Source: Bacteroidia bacterium (GTDB lineage: Bacteria; Bacteroidota; Bacteroidia; CAILMK01; JBBDIG01). Taken from it: a stretch of DNA of 64,000 nt. The DNA lies in the NCBI GenBank assembly GCA_040880525.1, contig JBBDIG010000014.1:1-64000 (forward strand), given 5' to 3'. Numbering within the stretch: the stretch's first letter is position 1; each line of letters starts with the position of its first letter. A program made the position numbers and the translations under genes. The notes under the pieces were generated by a model, which was given only the letters and a program-made list of their open reading frames with translations, searched no databases and had not been told where the DNA came from. Below are positions 25,279-45,756 of this stretch, one piece after another.

Positions 25279-26979
25279 TTATTTCTCTACCAGGAAATCA
25301 TTCATGATCAGACAATCCAGCCCGGACTGGTAAAAGCAGTTGATGGCATCCCCTGGAGTTTCTACCAGTGGCATTCCGTTTACATTAAATGAAGTATTGA
25401 GAACAATAGGCACATTCGATCTCGCGGCAAAATTCCTAATGAGATGATAATATCTCGAATTCAATTCTTCAGTAACCGTTTGCAATCTGCCTGAACCATC
25501 ATAATGCACCACAGCAGGAAGCCTGTCCTTTACTTTCTCTTTAAACTGGAATACCCGCTCCATAAAATATGAAGTCTGATCATTTGAATATTCAAAATAT
25601 TTCTCTTGTTTTTCTGCAAGAATGGCGGGAGCAAATGGCCGGAAACCTTCGCGATATTTGATCGTGGCGTTTACCAGGTCTTTCATATCAGGCCTCGTAG
25701 GATCTGCAATGATGCTTCGGTTTCCAAGTGCCCGCTGGCCAAATTCGCTGCCTCCCTGGAACCAGGCCAGGATTTTCCCATCCAGGATCAATTCGGCTCC
25801 TTTTACAGAGGCATCATCAAGCTTTGTGTAGCGGATCTTCCTTTTTATCAGTTCCAGCTCCACTTCGTCATTGGTGTATTCGCGGCCATAATAGTTATGG
25901 CGGTTGTTGCCAACATCCACCGGTTTATTCAGCACAAAGCGGGATCCATACAAGGCGCTGCCCACGCTGATTCCTGAATCATCAGGGCTGCCGCCCAAGT
26001 GTAGTTCTTCATAAGGCGTATTGTCTACAATTTTTCCATTTAATACAGAATTCATAAAAAAGCCGCCCGAAGCTACAAGCTTTGTATTTCCCGTTTTTTC
26101 ATGCAGATTTTTCAGAAGCTGAAAAATTACATCCTGAGCCACCTTTTGTACAGCAGCCACAATATCATAAGCGCGCTGATCGAGTTCCTGACCTTTGGTG
26201 TAACATGGTCCCAGCAATTCTTCAAGCTTATAGGAAAAATAGCGAGGCGTGAAGAAAAGGAAATGTTCAAAATATCGCAGGTCCAGTTCATACAGCAGCC
26301 CGTCAATGTTGATGAGCTTATTGATCCTGTCATAATATTTGGCGGAGTCTCCAAGCGCTGAGAGCGCCATTACTTTCCATTCATCACCATTGGGCTGGAA
26401 ACCCATGAAATCCGTAAAAGCCTGGTAGAACAACCCCAGGGAGTGAGGGGTGCGGTTGGTGTGGAGAATCTCGAATTTGCCATTCTTCACCTGGCCGCTT
26501 ATGCCGCTGGCCACTTCGCCAAATCCATCAGCCACCAGAAAATCGCAATCATCGAATTCACTGAAAAAGTACGCGTTGGCAAGATGCGCTTGATGGTGAT
26601 CTACAAAATGCACATTCCAGCGGATGTTCTCAGAAATAATGATTTGTTTAACATCCAAGATCTCCTTGGTTTCGAGGCTTGCCAGTTCGTTCAAGGCCAG
26701 GTATGCGATCTTACCGCGGTTACGCATGGCTTCAAAGAGGGTATGGTCCGGGCTTTTAATATAGTAGCGCGGATGCCATCCAATAAAGATATCGCTTACA
26801 TCTGAAAGTGAAATGCCGGCAGCCTTGCAGCAATACTTTATAGATTGAAGAGGAAAGGATTTATCCTTTTTAATTCTGGTCAGCCTTTCTTCATTAATAG
26901 CATATTGAAGCTTGCCATCCAGAATAAGACAAGCCGAAGAATTGAAACCACTGCAATTGACGCCAATGATCGCCCCCAT
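25279..26979 (-). CDS. NodU/CmcH-family carbamoyltransferase
   Basis: The 566-residue enzyme transfers carbamoyl from carbamoyl phosphate to a hydroxyl, via carbamoyl-adenylate, typically on a sugar or antibiotic. The N-terminal Kae1-like domain shows IIGVNCSGFNSSACLILDG and the metal-binding VDHHQAHLANAYF. The middle holds ASGGFFMNSVLNGKI, and the C-terminal domain starts with WFQGGSEFGQRALGNRSIIADP and has FRPFAPAILAE and NTSFNVNGMPLVETPGDAI. Length is normal for the family. It is divergent from the glycan locus, so O-carbamoylation of that glycan is the simplest inference. Confidence 0.92.
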   Translation of the reverse strand: MGAIIGVNCSGFNSSACLILDGKLQYAINEERLTRIKKDKSFPLQSIKYCCKAAGISLSDVSDIFIGWHPRYYIKSPDHTLFEAMRNRGKIAYLALNELASLETKEILDVKQIIISENIRWNVHFVDHHQAHLANAYFFSEFDDCDFLVADGFGEVASGISGQVKNGKFEILHTNRTPHSLGLFYQAFTDFMGFQPNGDEWKVMALSALGDSAKYYDRINKLINIDGLLYELDLRYFEHFLFFTPRYFSYKLEELLGPCYTKGQELDQRAYDIVAAVQKVAQDVIFQLLKNLHEKTGNTKLVASGGFFMNSVLNGKIVDNTPYEELHLGGSPDDSGISVGSALYGSRFVLNKPVDVGNNRHNYYGREYTNDEVELELIKRKIRYTKLDDASVKGAELILDGKILAWFQGGSEFGQRALGNRSIIADPTRPDMKDLVNATIKYREGFRPFAPAILAEKQEKYFEYSNDQTSYFMERVFQFKEKVKDRLPAVVHYDGSGRLQTVTEELNSRYYHLIRNFAARSNVPIVLNTSFNVNGMPLVETPGDAINCFYQSGLDCLIMNDFLVEK

Positions 26980-27399
26980 TTAGTTTAAGATTTGTAGGTG
27001 AATGAATAAAAACGTACTAACTGATTCTCTGAAAGAGCGTGCAAAATAAGCTGTTTTCAAGCAATATATTCTTGAGGTTTCAGTAGCGACATTATTTACT
27101 GAACAGGGTTGTTACCTTTTAAATCAACTTTTCTGTTTTGCTCCCTGACTTTCTTGTTTTATACTTTATTTCTTACCCCCTTAAAGTTTTATAATTATTA
27201 TTTATAAAATTGTTACTCCGGATCTAAAATCTTCTGTTTAAGGCTGAATCCGGCTTATCTGATGCATTAGTATTTTAGCGTATCAGCATCAAAGCATCGT
27301 TTCCTTACAAAAAAAGGAATTGATTCTACTTCTTAATAATTCAGAAAGATGATTTAAAAATCTGCTATTATTGCAGGTTTTTACTAACAGGATTGAGAG
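26980..27399. other. divergent intergenic region of the glycan locus
   Basis: 420 bp of AT-rich sequence between the carbamoyltransferase and the first glycosyltransferase. It should hold promoters in both directions. On the minus strand TTATTTTG at 27042-27049 is one mismatch from TAnnTTTG. No gene, RNA or strong hairpin was recognised. Confidence 0.5.
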
Positions 27400-28473
27400 G
27401 TGAGGATTCTGCATATATGCGGTTCATTTGAGAAGGGAGGAGTAACAGCATTTGTAAAAAACATGCTGGTGTTGAATAGCGAATTCGTTTCCACCCACGA
27501 TCTTATGGTAATCCATGAGTCCAATGAAGTGGAAGCACCCGGAGGCGCCACAATATATAATATGACCCGCGACCTTTCCTTTTTCAAGGCAGGAACTTTT
27601 TACTCCATTTTTTCTCAATACGAAGGGATTATTATTCACAAGGCCCATCCGGCCCTCCTGATTCCCCTGATGAGGTGCGCTGCATCTAAGCTCATCTTTC
27701 AGCACGGAATGACGATGAGCAAGGGTGGAGCGCTGAAAAAAGCCATCAAAGGAACCTGGTATTCACAGTTGCCGCGACTGCTCAAGGCAAAGGTGGTTTG
27801 TTCCACCCAATATGCTCTGGAAAAGGCCCGACTGTCAGGCATTGAAATAGCAGATAGTGATGCTTTTATAACACCCTTCGGAATAGACCTGAAGCGAAAG
27901 GAAACCCCGAAAGAATATGGTGCTCCACTGAAAAGCCGTCTGGTGGTGGGAACTGCCGGAAGACTTGAAGAGATAAAGCGCTTTGGGCTTTTGCTCCAAT
28001 CCCTGATGAACTACAGCGGACGGCCCATAGAATTGCGGATAGCAGGAGAGGGGAACCTCCGTGGTGAACTGGAAGCATTGGCAGCCAAATTACCGACAGC
28101 GCATGTTCAGGTACAATTTACCGGCAACCTCAGCGATCTGATCCCCTTCTATGATGATCTGGATATTTTTGTTTTTCCCAGCCACAACGAGTCTTTCGGA
28201 CTGGTGGTGGTAGAGGCGCTGGCCCGGAATATCCCGGTGGCAGTTTTTCCTGATATTGGAGGAGCCCTGGAGGTGATGGAAGATGAGAAGAACGGTTTTG
28301 TAATGAAGCCGGGAAAAGAAGGGCTAAAGGAACTGTGGGACAAACTGGATAATAATCCTGAGATTTTAAGCACAATGAGCCAGTACATTTGCAACACCGA
28401 CCTCTCTGTCTACAATATTATCGCTACCCGGAAAACGATGGACAACCTTATCCGGAAGATGAAACTAAGTTAA
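27400..28473 (+). CDS. GT4-family glycosyltransferase
   Basis: The 357-residue protein uses a GTG start at 27400 preceded by GAGAGG. It is a GT-B fold enzyme: the N-terminal half starts MRILHICGSFEKGGVTAFVKNML, and the C-terminal half begins VVGTAGRLEEIKRFGLLLQSL (about residue 185) and has the donor-binding EX7E region FPSHNESFGLVVVEALARN. It should transfer a sugar from a nucleotide donor with retention. It is the first gene of the co-directional glycan locus, 7 bp before the next start. Confidence 0.9.
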   Translation: MRILHICGSFEKGGVTAFVKNMLVLNSEFVSTHDLMVIHESNEVEAPGGATIYNMTRDLSFFKAGTFYSIFSQYEGIIIHKAHPALLIPLMRCAASKLIFQHGMTMSKGGALKKAIKGTWYSQLPRLLKAKVVCSTQYALEKARLSGIEIADSDAFITPFGIDLKRKETPKEYGAPLKSRLVVGTAGRLEEIKRFGLLLQSLMNYSGRPIELRIAGEGNLRGELEALAAKLPTAHVQVQFTGNLSDLIPFYDDLDIFVFPSHNESFGLVVVEALARNIPVAVFPDIGGALEVMEDEKNGFVMKPGKEGLKELWDKLDNNPEILSTMSQYICNTDLSVYNIIATRKTMDNLIRKMKLS

Positions 28474-28480
28474 TTTTCAA

Positions 28481-30355
28481 ATGAGCGGCTGGTTCTTAGC
28501 ATTCAACAACATACCGCCTGAGCGGATTGAGAAATTTCGCAAGGCATTCACATTTCCTCATTTACCGCCTCTGCAGTTGAATATCCGGGAATTGTCTCCT
28601 GGAATTTCGCTGGCTTTCTGGAACTGGCGCAATGACGGCCATTTCCATGATATTGCTATTGTTGAAGATAACAGCGGTCAACAACTATTGCTGGAGGGAT
28701 ACCTAACAGGTGCTGGAAAATATGGCAGTTTGCCGGCTGATCCCGAAGCTGCCGCAGCTACAGTTTTGCAGTTGTGGACGCAACATGGCGAAAAGGTAAT
28801 CTCCGAATTGAATGGCAGTTTTTCGCTCTGCATTATGAATCCTGAGCGGAAAGAAGGTTTGTTCATTACCGACCGCTTTAATTCACGGCCCGTCTGGCAC
28901 AACACAGAAGATGGCACTTCAGCCTTCGCCAATTTCGCTACACCTCTTGCTGCCCTGCAAAAGGCCGGAATTCGCTTCGATCCGGTTGCACTCTGGTCAT
29001 TGCTCTGTTATTCGCGCCCATTGGATCATCGCAGTTTGTTTGCCGGCATCCGTTTTTTGGATGCAGGAACGCGGGCTGAGTTTAATAATGGCAGGCTGGA
29101 AAAGCAGGAAAAATGGTTTAATCTCCATTTTGAGCCGGATACAAAGCCGTCAGCCTCAGAATGGGCCGGGGCAATCGTGGAGCGGCTGGGCGTATCAACT
29201 TCCGAAATGATCAAAACGGCTCCGGAGCTTTATCTCTTCCTTAGCGGAGGGCTGGATTCGCGGGTGGCAGCAGGCGCTTTGGGAAACCAGGCGCAATCCA
29301 TTACGCTGGCCTCGCATATAAATATGAATGTCAAACTTTCGCAGCAGGTTGCCGGAGCAGTAGGAATGCCCCATGAGATATTTTACAGGGATGACTATGA
29401 TTACCTGAATTATCTTGATGTGGCTGCCCTATTGAGCAATGGTAATTATAACCTGGCTCATGCACATTTTATGAAACCCTGCTATAAAAAAGTTGAAGAA
29501 AAGCCGGCTGCTGCGTTCATTCTTGGAGATCTGTTTGAGAATTATAATAAGCACTATTATAAAGTACTTCCTTCGGATCCAAAGGAGGTTTCGCCTGAAC
29601 AGTTGCCAACTATATTCAGAAAGCTATATGGCTATACCCATCCTGATTTCGTACAGCTCCGGGCGCTGTTTCAACCGGAGGTAGCCGGGCAACTGGAGTT
29701 GAGCTGGGAAGCGGCTCTGCAGGAATGGGCAGGGCAGGTGCAGGGTGTGAGCAATGATCACCGTGATTATCTGAATGCCCTATTCAGATGGTACAACAAC
29801 TACTGCTGCCCCACCAACCTGATGCTGGAATGCATTAAGCCTTTTGCGCCTCACCGGAATCTGATGTTTGACAATGAGCTTTTCAGTTTGTTGCTGCAAA
29901 TGCCCGCTGAATTGAAAGGAAAAGCCATTATGCATAATAAAATTTTAGGCACTCAAAATAAAAAGCTCCTCAATATTGCCGACAGCAATTTCTGGTTGCC
30001 GCCATCAGTGCCAAAACCGGTAAAGGAAATGGCTCAGCAGATACGGCCGTTACTGGGAAAATGGCGGAGAAGCCTCAACAGAAAGAGCAAAGGCGGCAAA
30101 CCCAACTTCAAGAGCGAAGGTTCATGGCACATGCGCCACGAGTGGTTTAAGCATGATAAAACCTATCAGGATTTGATTGAAGGACTGCTGGAGGATGAAA
30201 CCATTTTCATCAGCGAGGTTTTCAACCGCGAGGCTGTGCGGCAAAGCTGGGAGGAGTTTAAAGCAGGCAATAAAGCCCGCAACTTTGAATGGGATATGCT
30301 GATAAGCTATGCGCTGGTTCAGAGGCAGTTTCCTGCTTCAGGAATTGCGTTTTAA
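28481..30355 (+). CDS. asparagine-synthase-like protein without the glutaminase Cys
   Basis: The 624-residue protein has an N-terminal Ntn-hydrolase-like domain and a C-terminal ATP-pyrophosphatase synthase domain. In true AsnB the chain begins MCGI with Cys as nucleophile. Here it begins MSGWFLAFN, with Ser at that place, so glutamine hydrolysis as in AsnB is not expected. The PP-loop is intact (FLSGGLDSRVAAG, Ser255), so adenylation chemistry may remain. Homologues are frequent in exopolysaccharide loci, perhaps amidating uronic acids or making another amide. It starts 7 bp after the GT4 and ends 9 bp before the next GT4. Confidence 0.87.
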   Translation: MSGWFLAFNNIPPERIEKFRKAFTFPHLPPLQLNIRELSPGISLAFWNWRNDGHFHDIAIVEDNSGQQLLLEGYLTGAGKYGSLPADPEAAAATVLQLWTQHGEKVISELNGSFSLCIMNPERKEGLFITDRFNSRPVWHNTEDGTSAFANFATPLAALQKAGIRFDPVALWSLLCYSRPLDHRSLFAGIRFLDAGTRAEFNNGRLEKQEKWFNLHFEPDTKPSASEWAGAIVERLGVSTSEMIKTAPELYLFLSGGLDSRVAAGALGNQAQSITLASHINMNVKLSQQVAGAVGMPHEIFYRDDYDYLNYLDVAALLSNGNYNLAHAHFMKPCYKKVEEKPAAAFILGDLFENYNKHYYKVLPSDPKEVSPEQLPTIFRKLYGYTHPDFVQLRALFQPEVAGQLELSWEAALQEWAGQVQGVSNDHRDYLNALFRWYNNYCCPTNLMLECIKPFAPHRNLMFDNELFSLLLQMPAELKGKAIMHNKILGTQNKKLLNIADSNFWLPPSVPKPVKEMAQQIRPLLGKWRRSLNRKSKGGKPNFKSEGSWHMRHEWFKHDKTYQDLIEGLLEDETIFISEVFNREAVRQSWEEFKAGNKARNFEWDMLISYALVQRQFPASGIAF

Positions 30356-30364
30356 TAAAACTAA

Positions 30365-31504
30365 ATGGGAGAGGTGAAGAAAGTACTGATCGTTCAAAAC
30401 ATTCCGAATCCATACAGAATACCGCTCTTTAATGAGTTGCATACTCAACTGCAGCAGAAAGGGATTGATATGAAAGTGGTTTTTGGTGCTGCTACCTACA
30501 AGCGCAGAAAATTTTCACTGAACCTTGAGGACTGCCATTTTGATTTTGAAATATTGAAGTCCTCACTCGTTTATTCAGGCAAATCGGAAATTCCATTTTT
30601 TGGATACAACGGATTGTTGCGAACGGTAATAAAGGAAAAGCCGGACCTGATCATCATTATTGGGTTTTCTTTGGGAACATTCAAGCTTTGGCTGCGAAGT
30701 TTTTTCTCCTCAATCCCATTCCTGATCTGGAGTGGGAGCATCACTACTAAGGGGAGGAAGGATTCTCCCAACCGCAGGCGATTCAGAAAGGCGTTGGCCG
30801 CAAGGGCTGCCGGATTCGTGGCGTACGGCACAAAAGCCAAAGAGTATTTGATGGAACTGGGCGTACCGGCTGAGAAGATCCACATTGGAATCAACACCAC
30901 TGACATCAGCTATTTTCGGGAGCGCGTGAAGAAGGTGGGGCGCAAGCTTTCCGGCAGCCGCAAGAATTTGCTTACAATAGGCTACCTTACCCGTGGAAAG
31001 CGCATTGATCTTCTGCTGCAGGCCATAAAACACCTTAGCCGGATACGACAGGATTTTGTCCTGAAAATTGTAGGAGCAGGAGCAATAGAGGAGGAACTGA
31101 AACAATTGGCCGCAGAACTTCAGGTGGAGCCGTACGTTAGTTTTGAGGGTTTTCAGCAAAAAACGGAGATTCCGGGATACCTGGCAGAGGCAAGTGTATT
31201 CCTGTTTCCTAGTGAATATGATATATGGGGGCTGGTTTTGGTTGAAGCGTTGGCAGCAGGCGTACCGGCAATTTCGTCAATTCATGCGGGAGCAACCATG
31301 GATTTGATCGTGGAGGGTAAAACCGGTTTCGCAATGGACTTTGAAGATACTGAAGCCGTGGCGAAGAAAATTGACTGGTTGCTTGAGAATCCTGAAGAGG
31401 CTGCCAGAATAGGAGCTGCGGCCCAATACCATATTGAAACGGAGACAAGCCTGGCGAAAAGTGCCGCAGGATTTGTACAGGCCATTGAGGAAAATTTAAA
31501 TTAA
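30365..31504 (+). CDS. GT4-family glycosyltransferase
   Basis: The 379-residue GT-B enzyme starts KKVLIVQNIPNPYRIPLFNEL, with an acceptor-side half that includes PDLIIIIGFSLGTFKLWL. The C-terminal Rossmann half begins LLTIGYLTRGKRIDLLLQAI and carries the donor site FPSEYDIWGLVLVEALAAGVPAI. The EX7E second Glu is present (EYDIWGLVLVE). It is the third gene of the locus. A 189-bp gap with a promoter-like motif separates it from the GT2 gene. Confidence 0.9.
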   Translation: MGEVKKVLIVQNIPNPYRIPLFNELHTQLQQKGIDMKVVFGAATYKRRKFSLNLEDCHFDFEILKSSLVYSGKSEIPFFGYNGLLRTVIKEKPDLIIIIGFSLGTFKLWLRSFFSSIPFLIWSGSITTKGRKDSPNRRRFRKALAARAAGFVAYGTKAKEYLMELGVPAEKIHIGINTTDISYFRERVKKVGRKLSGSRKNLLTIGYLTRGKRIDLLLQAIKHLSRIRQDFVLKIVGAGAIEEELKQLAAELQVEPYVSFEGFQQKTEIPGYLAEASVFLFPSEYDIWGLVLVEALAAGVPAISSIHAGATMDLIVEGKTGFAMDFEDTEAVAKKIDWLLENPEEAARIGAAAQYHIETETSLAKSAAGFVQAIEENLN

Positions 31505-31530
31505 AAATCGGTAAAAAAGATGTTTTCACA

Positions 31531-31558
31531 TTTGAATATATATTTTTCGATACTTTTG
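31531..31558 (+). promoter_or_regulatory. candidate internal promoter before the GT2 gene
   Basis: TTTG at 31531-31534 and TACTTTTG at 31551-31558 fit the Bacteroidota -33 and -7 boxes, but the 16-bp spacer is slightly short. It lies in the only sizeable gap (31505-31692) of the first part of the locus. Confidence 0.45.
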
Positions 31559-31692
31559 CAATATAGTTTTGAAAAAGTAAAAAGTGAGAGACGAACGCCT
31601 TATACCACTATAAGCTCGTTTGTTTCCGCTCAGATGTTAGAAACCAGAACTTTTTATTTGGAAAAGATATTTTTAAGAAATAGCGTGAAAAG

Positions 31693-32676
31693 GTGAAGAA
31701 AGAGCTACGTCCGTATATTTCAATTGTCAGCCCTGTGTACGGGGCGGAAAAGCTGTTGGATGCGCTGGTAGAGCGGATCGGGAATTCCATGAAGCAGATA
31801 ACGGAGAGCTATGAGATCATCCTAGTGGAAGACCACAGTCCGGACCGTTCATGGGAAAAAATCGAAGAGAATGCCCGCCTGGATTCACGGATAAAGGGCG
31901 TGAAGCTAAGCCGCAATTATGGACAGCACTACGCAATCACAGCAGGACTTGACCATTCATCAGGCAAATGGGTGGTGGTAATGGACTGCGACCTTCAGGA
32001 CCGGCCGGAGGAGATCATTAATCTTTACAATAAAGCACAGGAAGGCTGGGATGTAGTATTAGCAAGAAGATATGACCGGCAGGATGGCAGGCTTAAGAAA
32101 TGGTTCAGCCGGTCATTCTACAAGGTGCTGTCTTATCTCACCGGCTCCAGTATTGATCCTTCAATAGCCAATTTTGGCATCTATCATAAAAATGTGGTAG
32201 AGTCAATTTGCAGCATGCGCGAAAGCATCCGGTATTTCCCGTCCATGGTTAAATGGGTGGGTTTCAACTCGACCTCAGTAAACGTGAAACATGCTGAACG
32301 CGCAGCAGGCAGTAGCGGGTACAACTTCGGGAAGCTGCTGAAACTGGCAGTGGACATTATGCTGGCTTATAGCGATAAGCCATTGCTCATTACTGTGCAG
32401 ATCGGGATCCTCATCTCAATGTTTTCTTTTGTTGCCGCCATCGTCTATTTTATTATGGCGGTTACCGGTAAGATCCAGGTGATGGGATTTGCCAGCCTTA
32501 TTGTTTCTATCTGGTTTTTATCCGGATTGATCATCCTCACTCTGGGGATAATGGGATTGTATATCGGAAAAACTTTTGAAGGCGTAAAAAACCGTCCGAT
32601 TTACCTGGTGGCTAAACGGGTAAATGTGAATGAAGCCGAAGAAGAAATTGTGTTAGGCCAGAAGGAAAGCAAATAA
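31693..32676 (+). CDS. GT2-family polyprenyl-phosphate glycosyltransferase (DPM1/GtrB-like)
   Basis: The 327-residue protein uses a GTG start. The GT-A catalytic part shows ISIVSPVYGAEKLLDALVERI, VEDHSPDRSWEKIE and the metal/donor motif MDCDLQDRPEEI. Two C-terminal membrane helices follow (about residues 232-258 and 268-295). This make-up is typical of enzymes that load a sugar on undecaprenyl phosphate for use outside the membrane. The GT39-like protein at 34003 is a natural user of such a lipid-linked sugar. Confidence 0.9.
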   Translation: MKKELRPYISIVSPVYGAEKLLDALVERIGNSMKQITESYEIILVEDHSPDRSWEKIEENARLDSRIKGVKLSRNYGQHYAITAGLDHSSGKWVVVMDCDLQDRPEEIINLYNKAQEGWDVVLARRYDRQDGRLKKWFSRSFYKVLSYLTGSSIDPSIANFGIYHKNVVESICSMRESIRYFPSMVKWVGFNSTSVNVKHAERAAGSSGYNFGKLLKLAVDIMLAYSDKPLLITVQIGILISMFSFVAAIVYFIMAVTGKIQVMGFASLIVSIWFLSGLIILTLGIMGLYIGKTFEGVKNRPIYLVAKRVNVNEAEEEIVLGQKESK

Positions 32677-32715
32677 AGAATATAAGGCAGTTTAGAATAA
32701 AACCTTAAAGTGAAG

Positions 32716-33891
32716 ATGAACAATACTCCGTTTAACAAGCCGTATCTGTCAGGAAAGGAAACTCAGTATATTGAGGATGCGGTGAGATCCGGAAAAATTT
32801 CAGGAGATGGCATTTATACTGCGAAATGCCACAAGTTTTTTGAGGAGCGATTCGGTTTTAATAAAACCCTGCTCACCACTTCCTGCACTGATGCGCTGGA
32901 AATGTGTGGAATATTGTTGGACATTCAACCGGGAGATGAGGTAATGCTGCCGTCTTTTACTTTCGTATCAACCGCCAACGCTTTTCTGCTGCGGGGAGCG
33001 AATCTCATTTTTGCCGACAGCATGGCCATGAATCCTAACATGGACGCTTCCCGGATTGAAGAATTGATCACTCCCCGGACGAAGGCAATTGTCGTGGTGC
33101 ATTATGCCGGTATTGCATGCGATATGGGAAAAATCATGGATCTGGCTGAAAAGCATGAACTGTATGTGGTGGAAGATGCGGCACAGGCTATTGATTCCTA
33201 TTATAATGGCAAACCGCTTGGCTCCATAGGAAATCTTGGTGCTTTTTCATTTCATGAAACCAAGAATGTTATTTCAGGAGAAGGCGGGATGATCGCCTTA
33301 AACGACAAGAAATTTCAAAACCGCGCTGAAATAATCCGGGAGAAAGGAACGAATCGCTCAGCCTTTTTCAGGGGCGAGGTTGACAAATATGGCTGGGTGG
33401 ATATTGGCTCTTCTTTTTTACCATCGGATATTATTGCCGCGTTTCTTTTCGCCCAGCTCGAAAATCTTGATGACATTCAGCAAAAACGCAGGAAGATCTG
33501 GGACAAATATGATGAACTGCTGCAACCGCTCAGAGAGGAGGGACGGCTTCAGCTTCCGCAAATTCCCGGGTATGCTACCAACAATGGACACATGTATTAT
33601 ATCGTGTGTAACGGGCTGGAAGAAAGATCGGCTTTGATTGCTCATTTAAAGAAAAAGGGGATTATGGCAGTATTTCATTATATCTCCTTGCATTCCTCTC
33701 ATTTGTACCGGAACAGGTATAAAGGAATGGCGCTTACAGAAGCTGACCGATATACGAATTCTCTGGTACGATTGCCCTTGTTTTACGACCTGACAATGGA
33801 AGAAGTAGCACGAATAGCTGAAGAAATAAAGAGCTTTTATAAGCAGTATCACAGGCAAAGTTCGCCACACGTTGCAACCTTAAATACCTGA
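32716..33891 (+). CDS. wecE: DegT/DnrJ/EryC1 sugar aminotransferase, WecE/RffA-like
   Basis: The 391-residue PLP enzyme (ATG 32716; a GTG two codons upstream at 32710 is possible) converts a nucleotide-linked 4-keto-6-deoxy sugar to a 4-amino sugar. The N-terminus NNTPFNKPYLSGKETQYIEDA is that of the WecE branch, whose product is dTDP-Fuc4N. The PLP lysine is Lys183 in SFHETKNVISGEGG, and the EDAAQAID cofactor motif is present. rmlA and rmlB, needed to make the substrate, are not in the window. With the formyltransferase at 41330 it suggests an N-acylated amino sugar. Confidence 0.88.
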   Translation: MNNTPFNKPYLSGKETQYIEDAVRSGKISGDGIYTAKCHKFFEERFGFNKTLLTTSCTDALEMCGILLDIQPGDEVMLPSFTFVSTANAFLLRGANLIFADSMAMNPNMDASRIEELITPRTKAIVVVHYAGIACDMGKIMDLAEKHELYVVEDAAQAIDSYYNGKPLGSIGNLGAFSFHETKNVISGEGGMIALNDKKFQNRAEIIREKGTNRSAFFRGEVDKYGWVDIGSSFLPSDIIAAFLFAQLENLDDIQQKRRKIWDKYDELLQPLREEGRLQLPQIPGYATNNGHMYYIVCNGLEERSALIAHLKKKGIMAVFHYISLHSSHLYRNRYKGMALTEADRYTNSLVRLPLFYDLTMEEVARIAEEIKSFYKQYHRQSSPHVATLNT

Positions 33892-33900
33892 CAATTTTAA

Positions 33901-33908
33901 TATTTTTG
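33901..33908 (+). promoter_or_regulatory. candidate -7 box before the GT39-like gene
   Basis: TATTTTTG fits TAnnTTTG. It lies 10 bp after the wecE stop and about 100 bp before the next start. The nearest TTG is too far upstream for a standard spacer. Confidence 0.35.
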
Positions 33909-34002
33909 CAGTCCGTTTCCTATGAAGGACTTCTCCTTCCCACCCACGCCTTTTATAAGTATTAAGTTAAAGAATTGCTGACAACGCAGACGGCTGAGTT
34001 CA

Positions 34003-35343: not shown

Positions 35344-35353
35344 CCATCAGGAA

Positions 35354-36634
35354 GTGAAGAAATTTGTCCTTGTATATATCGCTCTCAGAAGCACCGTACT
35401 GGTGTTTTATGATACACACTTGCTTCCGGGAATAAGCGTGACTGATTTTGTAGGCGTTACTTTTCCAGCTTTGCTATTATACTATTACTTTACCACAGAG
35501 GAAAAGCCATTTCACTTTCTCAATCATATCATTATCATTTGGTTTGGCTGGATGATACTTTCCTCGGTGCTGGAGTATTTTGTATATAACACCAATATTC
35601 TGGGCAACATCATTATGGTGTTCAAGTTCCTGAATGCTTTCGCAGTTTTCCTGGTCTTTCCTGCCCTCTTTAAAACCAAAGAGGATGTGAACATGGTGGT
35701 GAATGCCTTTCTCATCAGCAGCTTGTTTCCACTGGCGCAGGGCATTGCCCAGCAGGTATTTGGCCCCACTTTTCTCGGTATGATGGTAATGGTTCGGCCG
35801 GGAGGAATTCAGTTATATTCAGGGTTCTACGGAAACTACGGAACCTTTTCCCTTCTTGCGGAATTCGGGCTGATGTGCCTTATCTACAAATTCAAGCAAA
35901 TGGAGCTTCAGACAGGGTTGCTCTGGAAGCTATTCTATATTTTCCTTTTTGTGGCTTACCTCGCACTTGCACTGATGACGCTTTCCAGAACATTGTTCAT
36001 TATAGTGTCCACGATCTCTATCGCTATATTAATGGGATTTAAACTGAGGAAGAATATTCCTTTCCTGGTGTTGATGATCATGGCGCTGGGCTACATCGCG
36101 ACCACGGATTATTTTACCGAGAAATATGAATCTATTCTGGCCCGGTCTCAAAGCGAGATTGCCGTGATGGAAGGAGAGCAAAAAATTGAGCACGGAATGC
36201 ATGGCCGCGTAGGCCGTTGGGGAGGCTATCTCGAAAAATTTTATGAACAATATACTCCGGCTGAAAGAATACTCGGTACGGACATTAACATAGGCCCGCA
36301 CGGGGATTATTTCTACTGGCTGTTCCGGTATGGATATGTGGGTATAGGACTGTACATTTCGTTTTTCATCTGTCTTACTCTCTGGTGCTTTGTAAGATAT
36401 TTTAAATGTAAAGATCCCCTTGATAAAGCTTATGGAAGATTAGCCCTGGTGGCTATTCTTGCCTGGCTATTTCAAGCCGTTACTTCAATTCCTTCCCTGA
36501 CCACAGACAGCAGTTTATTTATATTGGGAAATATTTCTATTTTTCTTAATATGAAGTTAAAAGATACCACTCAGCGAAGCAGAGATGCTTCTTTTGCACA
36601 AAAACCTATTTATGAAATGCCGGCATTGCAATAG
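35354..36634 (+). CDS. O-antigen ligase/polymerase-like membrane protein (Wzy/WaaL)
   Basis: The 426-residue protein starts at GTG 35354, ten bases after the preceding stop, and has about eleven membrane segments. A large outer loop between late helices contains HGRVGRWGGYLEKFYEQYTP and then GPHGDYFYWLFRYGYVGIGLY, which is the H-x-D-Y ... GYVG pattern of the Wzy_C family. Members polymerise repeat units or ligate glycans to a lipid or protein. It is the likely polymerase of the locus. Confidence 0.85.
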   Translation: MKKFVLVYIALRSTVLVFYDTHLLPGISVTDFVGVTFPALLLYYYFTTEEKPFHFLNHIIIIWFGWMILSSVLEYFVYNTNILGNIIMVFKFLNAFAVFLVFPALFKTKEDVNMVVNAFLISSLFPLAQGIAQQVFGPTFLGMMVMVRPGGIQLYSGFYGNYGTFSLLAEFGLMCLIYKFKQMELQTGLLWKLFYIFLFVAYLALALMTLSRTLFIIVSTISIAILMGFKLRKNIPFLVLMIMALGYIATTDYFTEKYESILARSQSEIAVMEGEQKIEHGMHGRVGRWGGYLEKFYEQYTPAERILGTDINIGPHGDYFYWLFRYGYVGIGLYISFFICLTLWCFVRYFKCKDPLDKAYGRLALVAILAWLFQAVTSIPSLTTDSSLFILGNISIFLNMKLKDTTQRSRDASFAQKPIYEMPALQ

Positions 36635-36637
36635 TTT

Positions 36638-36669
36638 TTTGACCAATAAAACTATTTAAACTAAATTTG
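36638..36669 (+). promoter_or_regulatory. internal promoter before the third GT4 gene
   Basis: TTTG at 36638-36641, a 20-bp spacer and TAAATTTG at 36662-36669 match the Bacteroidota consensus TTTG-N19-21-TAnnTTTG, 16 bp before the ATG at 36686. This is the best-matching promoter in the glycan locus and suggests the second half is a separate transcript. Confidence 0.6.
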
Positions 36670-36685
36670 CGAGGCTTTTTGGAAA

Positions 36686-37825
36686 ATGGAAAATTCTAAA
36701 CCTATTATGAAAGAAAATCATCCGCCAAAGGTGGTATTCCTTGGTAAGCTTCCTCCCCCATATATTGGGCCTTCTGTTGCTTGTCAACTTATTTTGAAGT
36801 CGAAACTTAAAGACAACTTCCAGCTTTTGCACCTTGATACATCCGATCACAGGGATATTAATACCCTGGCAAAAATGGACTTCACCAATTTCTACCTGGC
36901 TTTTAAGCAATATTATATGCTGTTTAAAATGCTGGTGAAGGACAAGCCGGACATGGTATACATACCTGCTGGCCAAACCACCATCAGCTATTTCCGTGAT
37001 GCCGGGTTTATTTTGCTCGCCAAGCTTTTTGGCAAAAAGGTGATATGCCACTTACGCGGTGGAAATTTTGTGAACTGGTACAATTCCACCTCGGCCCTCA
37101 CCAAAATGGGAGTACGGAGTATACAGAAAAATGTGGACGGCCAGATTGTGCTTGGCGACAACCTGCGCCCGCTCTTTAACTGGATGATGCCTGAAAACCG
37201 GATACATGTTGTTCCCAATGGTTCAAATTATCCCACCATCCCGAAGAATGGAAAAGTGAGCGATAAAGTCCGTATACTTTTCCTGGGCAATTTTATCGGC
37301 ACTAAAGGCGTACTGATGCTGCTGAAATCTTCCCCTGCTGTTTTTGCAAAGCATAAAAACGTGGAGTTCCTCTTTGCCGGGAACTGGCGGGATGAGCCTA
37401 CTAAGATTGAGTTTGAGAAATTCCTGAATGAGAACCCGGGTTTGCCGGTGACCATTATTGGCCCGGTACAGGGGCAGGAAAAGTTCGACCTGCTGTCGAG
37501 CGCTGATATCTTCGTATTCCCGACATTTTATCCAAACGAGGGACATCCGTGGGTGATCGTGGAAGCGATGTCAGCCGGGTTGCCGGTTATTTCAACGGAC
37601 CATGCGGCAATTTCAGAATCAGTGCTGGACGGGAAAAATGGATTCCTGGTAGAGAAGCGGAACCCGCAGCAAATAGCCGATAAGATCAACTATCTCATAG
37701 AACATCCCGAAGAGAGGAAACGAATGGGTGAGGAAAGCCGCAAGCACTATCTCGCCAATTTTACAGAAGAAAAAATGGTGGAGCGCATGACCAAGGCATT
37801 TAATGCTACGCTTCACATCAACTAA
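36686..37825 (+). CDS. GT4-family glycosyltransferase
   Basis: The 379-residue GT-B enzyme has an N-terminal glycine-rich start FLGKLPPPYIGPSVACQLIL and a Rossmann half that begins ILFLGNFIGTKGVLMLLKSS. The donor motif is FPTFYPNEGHPWVIVEAMSAGLPVIS, with both Glu of the EX7E pair. It begins the second half of the locus just after the strong promoter and precedes the tailoring genes. Donor and acceptor are unknown. Confidence 0.9.
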   Translation: MENSKPIMKENHPPKVVFLGKLPPPYIGPSVACQLILKSKLKDNFQLLHLDTSDHRDINTLAKMDFTNFYLAFKQYYMLFKMLVKDKPDMVYIPAGQTTISYFRDAGFILLAKLFGKKVICHLRGGNFVNWYNSTSALTKMGVRSIQKNVDGQIVLGDNLRPLFNWMMPENRIHVVPNGSNYPTIPKNGKVSDKVRILFLGNFIGTKGVLMLLKSSPAVFAKHKNVEFLFAGNWRDEPTKIEFEKFLNENPGLPVTIIGPVQGQEKFDLLSSADIFVFPTFYPNEGHPWVIVEAMSAGLPVISTDHAAISESVLDGKNGFLVEKRNPQQIADKINYLIEHPEERKRMGEESRKHYLANFTEEKMVERMTKAFNATLHIN

Positions 37826-37873
37826 CCCATCAAGCTATATTTCAATTTATTACAATAACATATTAAAGTTTTA

Positions 37874-40054
37874 ATGGAACAACTTACACAGAATTTGAAG
37901 GACGGTAAAATGGAACTTCTCGAAGTGCCATTTCCAGCATTGACAGAAGGAAACATGCTTGTCAGGGTTCATTTCTCCGTCATCAGTGCAGGCACTGAAG
38001 GCAAGACAGTGAAGGATGCCCGCCTCGGCTATATCGGCAAAGCCCGATCACGTCAGGAGGAAGTGAAAAAGGTTATACAGGTAGCCAAAACGCAGGGCGT
38101 AATGAAAACTTACCAGATGGTAATGAACAAGCTCGAAGCTCCTTCAGCCCTGGGATATAGCTGCGCTGGCGAAGTGATTGCCGTGGCACCTGATGTCCGG
38201 GGGTTCAAGGTGGGCGACCATGTAGCGTGTGCAGGCGCAGGTGCCGTGCATTCTGAAGTGGTAAGCGTTCCAAAGAACTTGTGTGTGAAAGTGGGCGATG
38301 GCGTCCGGCTGGACCATGCTGCTTTCTCTACTATCGCGGCCATTGCGCTGCAGGGTATCCGGCAGGCCGACTTGCGCCTCGGGGAAAACTGTGTGGTGAT
38401 CGGCCTTGGGCTGGTGGGACAACTTACGGTGCAAATGCTGAATGCCGCAGGTGTCGATTCCATTGGCATAGACATAGATCCGCGGCAGGTAAAGCTGGCG
38501 CAGGAAACCGGTGCAAGGCTGGCACTGGAAAGAAACGCCCCCGGCCTTGAAGACGCCATAATGGAACAAACAGGCGGTCACGGGGCGGATTCAGTAATCA
38601 TTACTGCCGGTACTTCATCACTGGATCCGGTGGAATTGGCAGGTACACTTTGCCGAACCAAAGGCAAGGTAGTGATAGTAGGTGTGGTGCCAACAGGCTT
38701 CAGCCGCAAGAATTTTTACCGCAAGGAACTGGACCTGAGAATGTCCTGTAGCTACGGGCCTGGCCGCTATGATGCGAATTATGAGGAAAAGGGCATTGAC
38801 TATCCCATCGGCTACGTGCGCTGGACGGAGAACCGCAACATGCAGGCTTTCCTTCACATGCTTCAAGATGGTAAGATTGACATGGAGAAGCTGATTACTC
38901 ATGAATATAAATTTTTCGATGCGCCTAATGCTTATCAGATGATCCTGGACAAAAAGGAACCGTTTGTGGGCGTGGTACTGAAATATGATACCGAGAAAGA
39001 ACTGACACAATCAGTAAAGGTGAGCAAGGCCACGGTATACGCAAAGGCAGATGCAAACCTGGGGTTTATTGGTGCCGGTTCATTTGGCCAGAACTTTCTG
39101 TTACCGAATGTAAAAGGAAAGGCAAACCTCGTTGGGGTGGCCACGGCCCGCAGCAACAGCGCCCGGAATATTGCCGATAAGTACGGTTTCTCCTATTGCC
39201 CTGCTGATGCTGACGAGCTTGTTAAGGATGAGAATATCAACACCCTGTTTATTGCCACTCGCCACAATACGCACGCGGAATATGTGATGAAAGGTTTGCA
39301 GAACAACAAGAACGTGTTCGTGGAAAAGCCTCTTTGCATGACCGAGGAAGAATTGGAGGAAATCCGCCAGCTTTATGATAAATCAAATGCGCGCCTCATG
39401 GTTGGTTTCAACAGGCGCTTTGCACCGCATATTAAAACGATAAAGCAGAAATTTAGCGATCAATTGCCCAAGGCGATCAATTACCGCATCAATTCAGGGA
39501 AACTACCCGATGACCATTGGATCCAGGATCCTGAGATTGGTGGCGGAAGGATAGTCGGTGAGGCTTGCCATTTTATTGACCTCGCTATGTACATTGCCGG
39601 ATCGCCCATTACCAGCGTAAGTGCAAACGGATTGCGTGATGCCAAAAACCATCTTGATACTGTAACCATTAGTCTGGGTTTTGAGAATGGAAGTGTGGCT
39701 GCAATTTCATATTTCAGCAACGGCAGCAAATCCGTACAGAAGGAATATCTCGAAGTGTTCTGTGGAGGAATGACGGCCATTGTGGATGATTTCAAAAACA
39801 TGACGCTCCACGGAAACAAGGTGAGCAAGGATAATCTTTCATCGCAGGACAAGGGCCATGCACAGGAACTGCATGAATTCCTGCAATCAATTAAGGAAGG
39901 CAAGCCAGCCCCCATTCCGTTCGAGGATGTCTACCTGTCTACATTGGCCACTTTCAAAGTGCTGGAATCCATTCGGGAACAGCGCAAAGTGATCCTTGCT
40001 GATGAAGCGAACCAAAATGTAGTTGCCTCAGAAAATGGTGTATTGCAGGACTGA
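37874..40054 (+). CDS. two-domain oxidoreductase: MDR dehydrogenase fused to Gfo/Idh/MocA
   Basis: The 726-residue fusion has an N-terminal medium-chain dehydrogenase (residues 1-375: GYSCAGEVIAVAPDVRGFKVGDHV, Rossmann GLGLVGQLTVQML) and a C-terminal Gfo/Idh/MocA domain (residues 390-715: LGFIGAGSFGQNFLLPNV, then VEKPLCMTEEEL and the EACHFIDLAMYIAG catalytic region with Lys and His). Such fusions sit in surface-polysaccharide loci of many phyla and are thought to oxidise or epimerise nucleotide sugars in two steps. The reaction is not established. Nothing suggests a frameshift; the linker is continuous. Confidence 0.9.
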   Translation: MEQLTQNLKDGKMELLEVPFPALTEGNMLVRVHFSVISAGTEGKTVKDARLGYIGKARSRQEEVKKVIQVAKTQGVMKTYQMVMNKLEAPSALGYSCAGEVIAVAPDVRGFKVGDHVACAGAGAVHSEVVSVPKNLCVKVGDGVRLDHAAFSTIAAIALQGIRQADLRLGENCVVIGLGLVGQLTVQMLNAAGVDSIGIDIDPRQVKLAQETGARLALERNAPGLEDAIMEQTGGHGADSVIITAGTSSLDPVELAGTLCRTKGKVVIVGVVPTGFSRKNFYRKELDLRMSCSYGPGRYDANYEEKGIDYPIGYVRWTENRNMQAFLHMLQDGKIDMEKLITHEYKFFDAPNAYQMILDKKEPFVGVVLKYDTEKELTQSVKVSKATVYAKADANLGFIGAGSFGQNFLLPNVKGKANLVGVATARSNSARNIADKYGFSYCPADADELVKDENINTLFIATRHNTHAEYVMKGLQNNKNVFVEKPLCMTEEELEEIRQLYDKSNARLMVGFNRRFAPHIKTIKQKFSDQLPKAINYRINSGKLPDDHWIQDPEIGGGRIVGEACHFIDLAMYIAGSPITSVSANGLRDAKNHLDTVTISLGFENGSVAAISYFSNGSKSVQKEYLEVFCGGMTAIVDDFKNMTLHGNKVSKDNLSSQDKGHAQELHEFLQSIKEGKPAPIPFEDVYLSTLATFKVLESIREQRKVILADEANQNVVASENGVLQD

Positions 40055-40128
40055 ACGGCATAGCGGGAGCCCGACATCAAACCATAGCAGCAGTATTTGC
40101 AAGAGACTAATATAATTGCATCAGCACA

Positions 40129-41322
40129 ATGGAACTATTGTTTACGATAAAAGAGGTAGCGAAGGATTCGCTCCAGCGCATTAAGCACAAATACTTGCCT
40201 TTCCCTATGAAGATTGGGCAGGATGAATTGCATCTGCAAAAGACCATGGAATGGCTGTGGCTCTCCTGCGAAAATGGGCAGGGAGGATCAGCAAGCCATT
40301 ATAATCTGGTTAATGGCAAATGGCTTGACCCATTTCCTGAAACTACCGGCTACATCATTCCCACCTTTTTCGATTATGCTGAAATGTATGGGGAGAAGCG
40401 GTTTTATGACCGTGCTATTCGCCTTACGGACTGGCTGGGTGAGGCGCAACTGGACAATGGTGCTTGCATGCAGGGCTCATGGAACAGGAGCAAAGGGAAG
40501 AATAAACCGATCATTTTCAATACCGGGCAGAACATATTTGGCTGGCTCCGCACCTATCAGGAAACCAGGGAGCAGAAATACCTTGACATGGCGCTAAAGG
40601 CCGGGGATTTTCTCTGCCGCAGTACAGGAGAAGATTTGATCTGGAACCAGCACCTGCACAACAATATCCCCCACACCTACAACTCCCGTGTATCGTGGAG
40701 CCTTTTGCTTTTGGCAGAAGAAACAGGTTTACAGAAGTATAGGGATGTAGCGCTCGCCAACCTGGACTGGGTGGTGGAGCAGCAGCTCACAAATGGCTGG
40801 TTCCAAAACTGTAACTTCAAGCCGGGGGAATACCCAAACACGCATGGAATCGCCTATACAACACGCGGGCTGCTGGAATCATATCTTGTATCCAAAGACG
40901 AAAAATATTTGGATGCTGCCCAGCGCACAGCGCACAAGCTTTTCCGCATTTTTGAATTGAGAAAGTACATACGCACATTCTGGGACGAGAAATGGCGCAA
41001 CCATGGCAAATTCCTGAAGAGCAGCAAAGGCCCTTATATCTGCCTGACCGGCAACATCCAGATTTCGATCGTGTGGATGAAGCTGTATGAGATCACCGGT
41101 GATGCCACTTATATGAATTCCGCAATGAAGATGCTGGACTTCATCAAAAGCCTCCAATATGTGGACCATCCAAAGAAAGAATTGAATGGTGGAATTAAAG
41201 GCTCATTTCCGTTTTATGGCCGCTATTCCATTATCAAGATGCCAAATTGGGCTGCCAAATTTTTTGTAGATGCCATGATGCTAAAAATCAGGCTACAGGA
41301 CGAAATCGCTAAAAACAATTAA
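40129..41322 (+). CDS. alpha/alpha-toroid protein of glycan loci
   Basis: The 397-residue protein has no signal peptide. It shows repeated helical pairs of the (alpha/alpha)6 type: FNTGQNIFGWLRTYQETREQ, SRVSWSLLLLAEETG, THGIAYTTRGLLESYLVSKD and GNIQISIVWMKLYEITGD, each followed by YLDMAL/YLDAAQ-like helices. The end GSFPFYGRYSIIKMPNWAAKFF is distinctive. Folds like this occur in glycoside hydrolases, uronyl lyases and C5-epimerase tails. Cytoplasmic location and operon position point to tailoring of a precursor. No catalytic residues can be named. Confidence 0.68.
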   Translation: MELLFTIKEVAKDSLQRIKHKYLPFPMKIGQDELHLQKTMEWLWLSCENGQGGSASHYNLVNGKWLDPFPETTGYIIPTFFDYAEMYGEKRFYDRAIRLTDWLGEAQLDNGACMQGSWNRSKGKNKPIIFNTGQNIFGWLRTYQETREQKYLDMALKAGDFLCRSTGEDLIWNQHLHNNIPHTYNSRVSWSLLLLAEETGLQKYRDVALANLDWVVEQQLTNGWFQNCNFKPGEYPNTHGIAYTTRGLLESYLVSKDEKYLDAAQRTAHKLFRIFELRKYIRTFWDEKWRNHGKFLKSSKGPYICLTGNIQISIVWMKLYEITGDATYMNSAMKMLDFIKSLQYVDHPKKELNGGIKGSFPFYGRYSIIKMPNWAAKFFVDAMMLKIRLQDEIAKNN

Positions 41323-41329
41323 GCTGACG

Positions 41330-42070
41330 ATGAAGAAGAAAATCACGGTTTTATTGCGTTATCCCAAAGTGGAGAAAAACCAGTGGAAGCGCGAACTCAT
41401 TGAGAAATTGCAAGAGGAAGGCTTCGAAGTGAGCATCATTTTCGGTGAAAAGAGTTATCAGCGCCACGCATTTGCTGCACTTAAGGATTTCGGACTGGAA
41501 ATCTTCAAAAAGAAGAGCAGTATTGACCAGCAGAAGAGTGTTAAACTGTATTCATATTTTAAGGATAAAATACATGTTGAAACGGTGAATGACCTGAATT
41601 CCAGCGACTGCGAAAAGAAAATCAGGAAGATTAACCCTGACTATCTCCTTTTGCTGGGCTCGGGCATAATCAGGAACAACATTATTGTGCTGCCAAAGAA
41701 GGGCGCCATACATTGCCATCACGGCTACCTACCTGAAGTACGCGGGGTCAGTACTGCAGAGTGGTCAATGTACCTGGGAAAGGACGTATACATTTCCACA
41801 CACTTTGTTGATCCGGGCGTGGACACCGGGGACATTTTGCTGCGCAAGAAAATACCGCTCACACCAGATGATACCATCACCAGCGTGCGCCTCAACTGCC
41901 GTCTGCATTCTGTAGACCTTATCATGGATACATTTAAGCTGGTTGAATCAGGCGATTACGAAGTAATAAAGCAGCGGCCGGAGGAAGGTGTGCAATATTT
42001 CCTGATGCACCCATTTTTTAAGGACTTGGTGAATCAAAAGCTAAAAAGAATAAAAGCGGAGGCAGTATGA
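41330..42070 (+). CDS. formyltransferase-fold protein with altered active site
   Basis: The 246-residue protein is related to the methionyl-tRNA/GAR/sugar N-formyltransferase fold: PDYLLLLGSGIIRNNIIVLP, GAIHCHHGYLPEVRG and STHFVDPGVDTGDILLRKKI. The family active site is Asn-x-His plus Asp. Here the His (130) and Asp (165) remain, but the Asn position is His128. With WecE in the same locus, N-formylation of a 4-amino sugar is plausible. It starts 7 bp after one toroid gene and overlaps the next by 4 bp (ATGA), so the three are coupled. Confidence 0.78.
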   Translation: MKKKITVLLRYPKVEKNQWKRELIEKLQEEGFEVSIIFGEKSYQRHAFAALKDFGLEIFKKKSSIDQQKSVKLYSYFKDKIHVETVNDLNSSDCEKKIRKINPDYLLLLGSGIIRNNIIVLPKKGAIHCHHGYLPEVRGVSTAEWSMYLGKDVYISTHFVDPGVDTGDILLRKKIPLTPDDTITSVRLNCRLHSVDLIMDTFKLVESGDYEVIKQRPEEGVQYFLMHPFFKDLVNQKLKRIKAEAV

Positions 42071-43284
42071 CCGACCTGAACAAGATCACGAAAGCACAGC
42101 AGCAGGCATTGAAATTTGCTGAAGAAAATGACTATTACGGCTACGACCTTTATGATGGCCTTAAAGTCACGGATTCAGAACCGTTGCTGAAGAATAAAGT
42201 ATTCAATGCGGTTTTTACCCAAAGCTTTAAACGCAACCCGGTAAACCTGCGACAATTGGCAGGCATTTCCAAATCTCGGATGCCAAAGGGAATGGGGATT
42301 TTCCTGAATGCCCATGCCTTGATGGCAAGGGTAACGGCAGGCGATCAACGCACCCATCATATTGCCGAGGGCAAGCGCATCCTGCAATGGCTTGACGAGC
42401 AAAAGGTGGAAGGTTACTCCGGTATTTGCTGGAATTTTGGGTTCAACTACAAGTTCATGTTCCACAAGCCCACAGTTGTGATTACCTCTATTATCGCCAG
42501 GGGACTGCACGAATACTACCTCGTAACACAGGACGAGCAGGCTAAACGACTCTTGCTGGGCACAAAGGACTTTATCCTGAACGACCTTTTCCGTACTGAA
42601 ACGGAAGATGGATTGTGCTTTAGCTACACCCCCATAAAGCCAGATTGCTGTTACAATGCCAGTATGCTGGCCACGGAAACCCTGGCGCGCATTTACTCAT
42701 TTACCGGGGAAAAGGAATTGCTGAATTTGATAAAGCAATCTATGGATTTTAATGTGGCGCACCAGCACAGGGATGGCCGATGGAATTATGCAATTGAAAT
42801 TGAAAGCGGAAAGGAACGCCCGCAAGTGGATTTTCACCAGGGATATGTGGTGGAGTCCATGCACGAGATCATGCGTTGGGCAAAACTTGACGATCCCAAA
42901 TATCAGCAGTCTGTCGCTGATGGGACCAAGTTTTATTTTGAAGAGCAGTTCTACAGCGATGGCCGGGCATTGCGCAGGATTCCCCGGATTTGGCCCGTGG
43001 ATATTCATAACCAGGCGCAGGGCATCATTACTTTCACCAAACTTCGCAACTTGGATGAACGCTATTTGCCGTTCGCCAAAACTGTGGCGGAATGGACCAT
43101 AGATAACATGCAGGACCTGGATGGCCACTTCTATTATCAGGTACATAAATACTACACCATCAAAACCTCCTACATGCGCTGGGCGCAGGCGTGGATGGTA
43201 TTGGGCATGGCACTCCTCCTTAACCAAGAGGACAAAGCCAAGCTAAACGGGCAGGTAAATGTGAAGGAAGGGGAGCGGGTGTAG
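42067..43284 (+). CDS. second alpha/alpha-toroid protein of the glycan locus
   Basis: The 405-residue protein overlaps the formyltransferase stop by 4 bp. Helical repeats include KPTVVITSIIARGLHEYYLV, YNASMLATETLARIYSFTGEKE, FHQGYVVESMHEIMRW and NQAQGIITFTKLRNL, with aromatic/acidic motifs between them (DGRWNYAIEIESG, WPVDIHNQ). It ends YMRWAQAWMVLGMALLLNQ. Similar fold to the gene at 40129 but low residue identity by eye. No signal peptide, so it should be cytoplasmic. Last gene of the locus; function unknown. Confidence 0.68.
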   Translation: MTDLNKITKAQQQALKFAEENDYYGYDLYDGLKVTDSEPLLKNKVFNAVFTQSFKRNPVNLRQLAGISKSRMPKGMGIFLNAHALMARVTAGDQRTHHIAEGKRILQWLDEQKVEGYSGICWNFGFNYKFMFHKPTVVITSIIARGLHEYYLVTQDEQAKRLLLGTKDFILNDLFRTETEDGLCFSYTPIKPDCCYNASMLATETLARIYSFTGEKELLNLIKQSMDFNVAHQHRDGRWNYAIEIESGKERPQVDFHQGYVVESMHEIMRWAKLDDPKYQQSVADGTKFYFEEQFYSDGRALRRIPRIWPVDIHNQAQGIITFTKLRNLDERYLPFAKTVAEWTIDNMQDLDGHFYYQVHKYYTIKTSYMRWAQAWMVLGMALLLNQEDKAKLNGQVNVKEGERV

Positions 43285-43820: not shown

Positions 43821-43947
43821 TACCCGCTGATACCTAATCAGGAGGATTAAATTTATAACCTTGAAATCTTGGAGGTTGGAAACACATGAATTTAATATAA
43901 TTTCACATTTCATAATTTTAACACAACCATTCCTCAAAAAAAATTCT

Positions 43948-45738: not shown

Positions 45739-45756
45739 CCGAAATACAACTTATTT

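Follow-up and report, generated by a model that had tools for sequence, protein, structure and literature searches.

A glycan operon of a Bacteroidia bacterium, probably a rearranged form of a polysaccharide locus that recurs in Bacteroidota

Does a glycan locus with an unusual set of tailoring genes encode a pathway of its own, or is it a variant of a more common gene set? The question is raised by positions 25279-43284 of a 64,000-nucleotide stretch of a Bacteroidia bacterium contig (JBBDIG010000014.1; the whole stretch is called the window below), in which a first-pass annotation had seen seven tailoring genes, including a NodU carbamoyltransferase, as a candidate for an undescribed pathway. 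We found that the core of the locus is shared by Bacteroidota and relatives in neighbouring phyla, as a widespread but little studied gene set of which the window operon is a rearranged copy. That the operon (27400-43284) belongs to a Wzx/Wzy-type polysaccharide locus (capsule or exopolysaccharide, EPS) and carries a side-branch cassette is the reading we consider probable.

All genes between 25279 and 43284 are intact open reading frames (ORFs) at the coordinates listed below. Twelve of them (27400-43284, all + strand) are separated by intergenic gaps of -4 to 188 bp, and because of the common strand and these gaps the run reads as a single operon. NodU lies on the - strand, divergent from the operon and 420 bp from its first gene. 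The gene families present support the identification as a glycan locus, and the earlier family assignments stand: NodU, an AsnB-like protein without the Cys, WecE, Formyl_trans_N, an ADH + GFO fusion and the glycosyltransferases (GTs; three GT4 and one GT2). Absent from that annotation were the GT-C protein (PF13231, 34003-35343) and the ArnC/PgfS character of the GT2. The genes are:

25279-26979, - strand: NodU/TobZ-type O-carbamoyltransferase (PF02543, PF16861; phmmer match to 7xb6); pathway membership doubtful
27400-28473, + strand: GT4a glycosyltransferase, operon gene 1 (PF00534)
28481-30355, + strand: AsnB-like amidotransferase/ligase, divergent in sequence (Ser for the glutaminase Cys, SGGLDS retained)
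30365-31504, + strand: GT4b glycosyltransferase, core (PF00534; 37-48% identical to the syntenic genes of relatives)
31693-32676, + strand: GT2 polyprenyl-phosphate glycosyltransferase of ArnC/PgfS type, inserted cassette (PgfS and PRK10714 models; hydrophobic C-terminus by hydropathy)
32710-33891, + strand: WecE, dTDP-4-amino-4,6-dideoxygalactose transaminase, inserted cassette (PRK11706, TIGR02379)
34003-35343, + strand: GT-C membrane glycosyltransferase (PMT_2), inserted cassette (PF13231, E 4.1e-8; many hydrophobic segments)
35354-36634, + strand: Wzy-like polymerase/ligase, core (synteny with relatives; no Pfam match of its own)
36686-37825, + strand: GT4c glycosyltransferase, core (37-46% identity with its syntenic counterparts in most of the core loci)
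37874-40054, + strand: two-domain oxidoreductase, ADH/MDR + Gfo/Idh/MocA fusion (family scan; 36-member alignment)
40129-41322, + strand: tor1, alpha-toroid protein, probably cytoplasmic, inserted together with FT (AlphaFold2 (AF2) model, Foldseek)
41330-42070, + strand: formyltransferase-like protein (FT), HxH for NxH (PF00551, alignment)
42067-43284, + strand: tor2, alpha-toroid protein, probably cytoplasmic, core (AF2 model, Foldseek)

Relatives of the locus were collected by scanning the tor2 alignment against 84,980 species genomes. This gave 392 stretches with a relative, of which the best 80 were taken with their flanks; these are therefore biased toward the window tor2, and each comes from one species genome, many being metagenome-assembled genomes (MAGs). 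The window genes were mapped onto these loci and all flanking ORFs were clustered. The recurring order was AsnB, GT4b, Wzy, GT4c, in some cases a second AsnB, the oxidoreductase and tor2, followed by a deacetylase-like protein, a hexapeptide acetyltransferase or formyltransferase, DUF354, a Bac_transf-type initiating transferase (PGT) and a Wzi-like protein. The names deacetylase-like and Wzi-type outer-membrane barrel were read from the sequences, neither of which matched any Pfam model. The upstream half was mostly in order in loci L049, L051, L060, L064, L037, L097 and L107. Cultured relatives that carry the core locus include Acidiluteibacter ferrifornacis (L058) and Balneola sp. EhC07 (L047). 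In 32 of the 66 loci with enough upstream sequence the oxidoreductase preceded tor2 on the same strand by less than 500 bp, and where 5 kb was available on both sides (43 loci) the dehydrogenase was present in 24, DUF354 in 27 and PGT in 24. The window Wzy-like protein has no Pfam match, and one syntenic relative scores 31.4 bits with Wzy_C (cut-off 31.7). Compared with this order, two groups of genes are inserted in the window: GT2-WecE-GT-C between GT4b and Wzy, and tor1 with FT between the oxidoreductase and tor2.

Other surroundings of tor2 were also seen. Loci of Chitinophagaceae type (L096, L098-L101, L103, L104, L106 and L109) have another conserved order, with a stand-alone Gfo/Idh/MocA gene downstream of tor2 in place of the upstream fusion. 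Relatives of tor2 also occur in MAGs labelled as archaea (L065, L072, L082, L092 and L095; Methanomassiliicoccus, Thermoplasmatota, Euryarchaeota). In all of these, tor2 comes after a DUF354-family protein and a member of one recurring ORF family; gene transfer and binning error are both possible.

The first-pass annotation had remarked that flippase, chain-length regulator and rmlAB are missing. This is true inside the interval, where an initiating transferase is likewise absent, but all of them are encoded elsewhere in the same genome. Contig C42 carries a PGT (PF02397), 50-72% identical to that of the relatives' loci, followed by Wza (PF02563), a Wzc-type protein (Wzc/Wzz; PF02706/PF13807), Wzx (PF01943), a GT4 and a sulfotransferase. 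Contig C26 holds a block of deacetylase (PF01522), formyltransferase, DUF354 and WecB in the order of the relatives' downstream half, the last three being 60%, 49% and 46% identical, respectively, to the clusters downstream of the relatives' tor2. A probe made from the relatives' deacetylase-like cluster (cluster 7) found no match in the own genome, and the PF01522 deacetylase occupies the corresponding place on C26; a Wzi-like protein sought in the same genome gave only a weak match on contig C50. RmlA (TIGR01207, 473.9 bits) and RmlB (TIGR01181, 483.6 bits), both above their equivalog cut-offs, are on contig C38 next to genes that read as GalE and UDP-glucose dehydrogenase. We infer that these three blocks serve the window operon, the basis for C42 and C26 being the arrangement in the relatives. 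Because the parts lie on other contigs, the exotic look of the locus would be a matter of gene dispersal.

Two of these contigs hold further genes. Behind the sulfotransferase of C42 (L130:10693-12674) lie two proteins of 334-335 aa that have neither a Pfam family nor hydrophobic segments and show putative nucleotidyltransferase-like motifs. Divergent from the deacetylase-to-WecB block of C26 (L186:12582-17711) are an ABC2_membrane protein, a sulfotransferase, a Wzt-like ATPase with Wzt_C and an AsnB whose GATase domain is intact.

The first inserted group looks, from its families, like a system for adding a side branch from undecaprenyl phosphate (Und-P), with a sugar of the dTDP-4-amino-4,6-dideoxygalactose (dTDP-Fuc4N) type. 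This sugar is predicted because of WecE, which scores 565.6 bits with PRK11706 (cut-off 375) and 519.7 bits with TIGR02379 (cut-off 434.85). With two curated cut-offs exceeded and RmlA and RmlB available in trans, a 4-amino-4,6-dideoxy sugar is likely, in line with the 4-amino sugar proposed earlier, and the cassette probably adds it. WecE is flanked by the GT2 and the PMT_2-type GT-C. Extracytoplasmic addition of side branches is typified by a polyprenyl-phosphate sugar synthase that works with a GT-C transferase; three-component systems of this kind are established (PMC11127046), and both proteins are present here. The best NCBIfam model for the GT2 is PgfS (2.5e-61), and PRK10714 (ArnC) follows with 7.4e-57; the scores stay below the equivalog cut-offs (207.6 against 500 and 192.7 against 529), which limits the match to full-length family similarity. 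A search of 394 further genomes of the phylum at E<=1e-10 turned up no relative of the GT-C protein.

Alternatively, the operon could be a locus for a glycoprotein or for a lipopolysaccharide (LPS) side-glycan, with the GT-C protein glycosylating protein or lipid and the Wzy-like one serving as a ligase. The PgfS model of the GT2 and the combination of GT2 and GT-C, as in the pgf operon of Streptococcus, where PgfS-PgfM1-PgfE-PgfM2 modify surface proteins (PMC5856776), speak for it, as does the annotation of the Wzy_C model as O-antigen ligase. However, the relatives' loci end with PGT and a Wzi-like outer-membrane protein, and in the own genome PGT is followed by Wza-Wzc-Wzx; both fit capsule or EPS export, and we consider the protein or LPS locus unlikely.

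The second inserted group, tor1 and FT, has its closest relative in locus L034, in which tor1, FT and tor2 are contiguous (64, 65 and 58% identical) and are followed by the downstream half. Since L034 has the same three genes together, at least two genomes have this arrangement; in L142 and L144, too, tor1 adjoins FT. The sugar N-formyltransferase family uses an Asn-His-Asp catalytic triad. In the alignment the catalytic Asn is replaced by His (HxH) in the window and L034, while NxH is retained in L142 and L144. Because of this replacement the formamido group suggested earlier is weakly founded.

NodU has both the N- and the C-terminal carbamoyltransferase domain (PF02543, 138 bits; PF16861, 225 bits) and matches the carbamoyltransferase 7xb6 in phmmer (E 1.8e-91). 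It falls short of the NodU equivalog cut-off of 1000; judged by its domains it is a bona fide carbamoyltransferase. Among 394 other genomes of the class its closest relative (55%, L177) lies in a non-glycan neighbourhood, among genes whose sequences suggest sucA/sucB and other functions unrelated to glycans, and that neighbourhood shares no window gene beyond NodU. In the survey of 43 tor2 loci NodU was found once, as was GT-C (a weak match), and strong matches to WecE, tor1, FT or GT2 were not found at all (0/43 each). These counts indicate that the tailoring genes do not travel as a set, and their proposed co-occurrence as one pathway is not supported by them. Carbamoylation of the operon glycan is possible, but the claim of a carbamoylated glycan found no support here, and NodU is probably a neighbour rather than a member of the pathway. 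Convergent with NodU is a SnoaL-like protein (24886-25269), and just 3' of the operon (43861-47709) are two tandem TPR-repeat proteins with an adenylate/guanylate cyclase catalytic domain.

A self-contained pathway, NodU included, whose product is a carbamoylated glycan bearing a formamido 4-amino sugar would account for the physical proximity of all these families and for the 420 bp upstream region that the divergent NodU shares with the operon. Against it stand the rarity of NodU and the absence of strong WecE matches in the survey, the surroundings of the closest NodU relative, the lost Asn of FT and the fact that initiation, flipping and export are encoded in trans. In our judgement it is quite improbable.

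The AsnB-like protein starts with MSGWF, with Ser in place of the glutaminase Cys, and keeps the ATP-pyrophosphatase loop SGGxDS as SGGLDS. In the relatives AsnB precedes GT4b, and the complete syntenic proteins start with MCG; a search of 394 further genomes of the phylum at E<=1e-20 gave no relative of the window protein. A decaying relic, with its downstream genes lost, might be read from this Cys to Ser change, the Asn to His change in FT and the block split over contigs, but it is hardly credible, given that every ORF is complete and the genes are closely spaced, that the FT change is common to L034 at 65% identity and so conserved rather than random, that AsnB retains SGGLDS and that the complementary parts persist in the genome.

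The truly uncharacterised element of the locus is the pair of dehydrogenase and tor2, and literature searches gave no description of an oxidoreductase-toroid pair. In the oxidoreductase the MDR domain is without the usual catalytic zinc ligands (Cys, His-Glu) and has SAGTEG and GYS there instead, in nearly all 36 homologues; the lysine of the EKP motif and the catalytic His of the Gfo/Idh/MocA domain are invariant (36/36). Both toroids are predicted as such, in agreement with the earlier annotation, with a predicted local distance difference test score (pLDDT) of 93.2 for tor2 and 83.6 for tor1. The window tor2 belongs to no Pfam family, and a PDB sequence search returned nothing. Its best Foldseek matches are glucose and cellobiose 2-epimerases (template modelling (TM) score about 0.6, 12-15% identity), and profile matches to the N-acylglucosamine/cellobiose 2-epimerases reach E 2.4e-5, covering part of the protein; H257 and H314 of tor2 are invariant. 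Of the tor2 relatives, only some match Pec_lyase, GH127, GH88 or GH76. For tor1 the best Foldseek match is the unsaturated glucuronyl hydrolase 3wiw (GH88, TM 0.68), and it stays below the GH88 Pfam cut-off (22.5 against 26.6 bits); a comparison of profiles links tor1 with tor2 (hhalign probability 96.6). By hydropathy no hydrophobic segments are present in tor1, tor2 or the tailoring proteins. Because both toroids lack them, cytoplasmic precursors are their probable substrates. A role as secreted depolymerases was rejected on the same ground.

As a tentative proposal, the two proteins could form an undescribed enzyme pair, in which the Gfo/Idh/MocA domain would oxidise a ring hydroxyl of a lipid- or nucleotide-linked sugar precursor, the toroid would epimerise or eliminate at the adjacent, activated carbon, and the zinc-less MDR domain would close the redox cycle. 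If true, this would be a hidden step that many polysaccharide loci have in common, in Bacteroidota as in neighbouring phyla, and that is extended here with tor1-FT and a Fuc4N branch.

For the operon as a rearranged copy of a Wzx/Wzy-type locus, the following course of synthesis is suggested. PGT would initiate the repeat unit on Und-P and the GT4s would lengthen the chain, while the AsnB-like protein, the oxidoreductase and tor2 may remodel a sugar in the cytoplasm by amidation and redox-assisted epimerisation. Wzx would then flip the repeat unit and Wzy polymerise it. WecE would make dTDP-Fuc4N, GT2 would load Fuc4N onto Und-P, and on the periplasmic side the GT-C protein would attach it as a side branch.

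Several points weigh against this reading. The GT2-WecE-GT-C cassette holds no flippase, and no ORF of at least 100 aa is left between its genes. The chemistry of the oxidoreductase and tor2 would depend on fold-level similarity at 12-15% identity. The ABC-type (Wzm/Wzt) set on C26 is probably a second glycan export system, so the genome probably makes more than one glycan, and scattered contigs cannot prove one common pathway. The core order and the dispersal in the own genome are observed, whereas the pathway assignment and the chemistry are deduced from sequence.

With the operon placed in this way, a seemingly unique locus becomes one example of a polysaccharide gene set that recurs in Bacteroidota and their neighbours, has gone largely unstudied and can have its parts dispersed across a genome. 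It also singles out a conserved pair without known activity, the two-domain oxidoreductase and tor2, that is directly testable.

Among known systems, the psc1 locus of Rubrivivax gelatinosus and the EPS locus of Thauera sp. MZ1T resemble the window in having several genes of AsnB (WbpS) type among GT4s, Wzy, Wzx and a polysaccharide deacetylase (PMC3684757); in the passages of that description compared here, no tor2-oxidoreductase pair and no GT2-WecE-GT-C cassette were seen. The alpha-toroids tor1 and tor2 share the fold of the N-acylglucosamine/cellobiose 2-epimerases, and of GH76 and GH88 (TM 0.6-0.7), but are only about 10-16% identical to them. Like the window cassette, the three-component Gtr, ArnC-ArnT and GT136 systems combine a polyprenyl-phosphate sugar synthase with a GT-C protein acting on a periplasmic glycan (PMC11127046); in the window the sugar is probably Fuc4N, as judged from WecE, there is no dedicated flippase gene in the cassette, and the GT-C protein is without a close relative in the 394 other phylum genomes sampled. 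The pgf operon of Streptococcus mutans (PgfS-PgfM1-PgfE-PgfM2) likewise groups a PgfS-family GT2 with further glycosylation genes (PMC5856776), but it is a protein-glycosylation operon, whereas the window cassette contains an aminotransferase and sits in a Wzy-type locus. With the WecE pathway of enterobacterial common antigen the window shares a WecE above the TIGR02379 and PRK11706 cut-offs and a genome that encodes RmlA and RmlB; in contrast, the window sugar is predicted to reach Und-P via the GT2.

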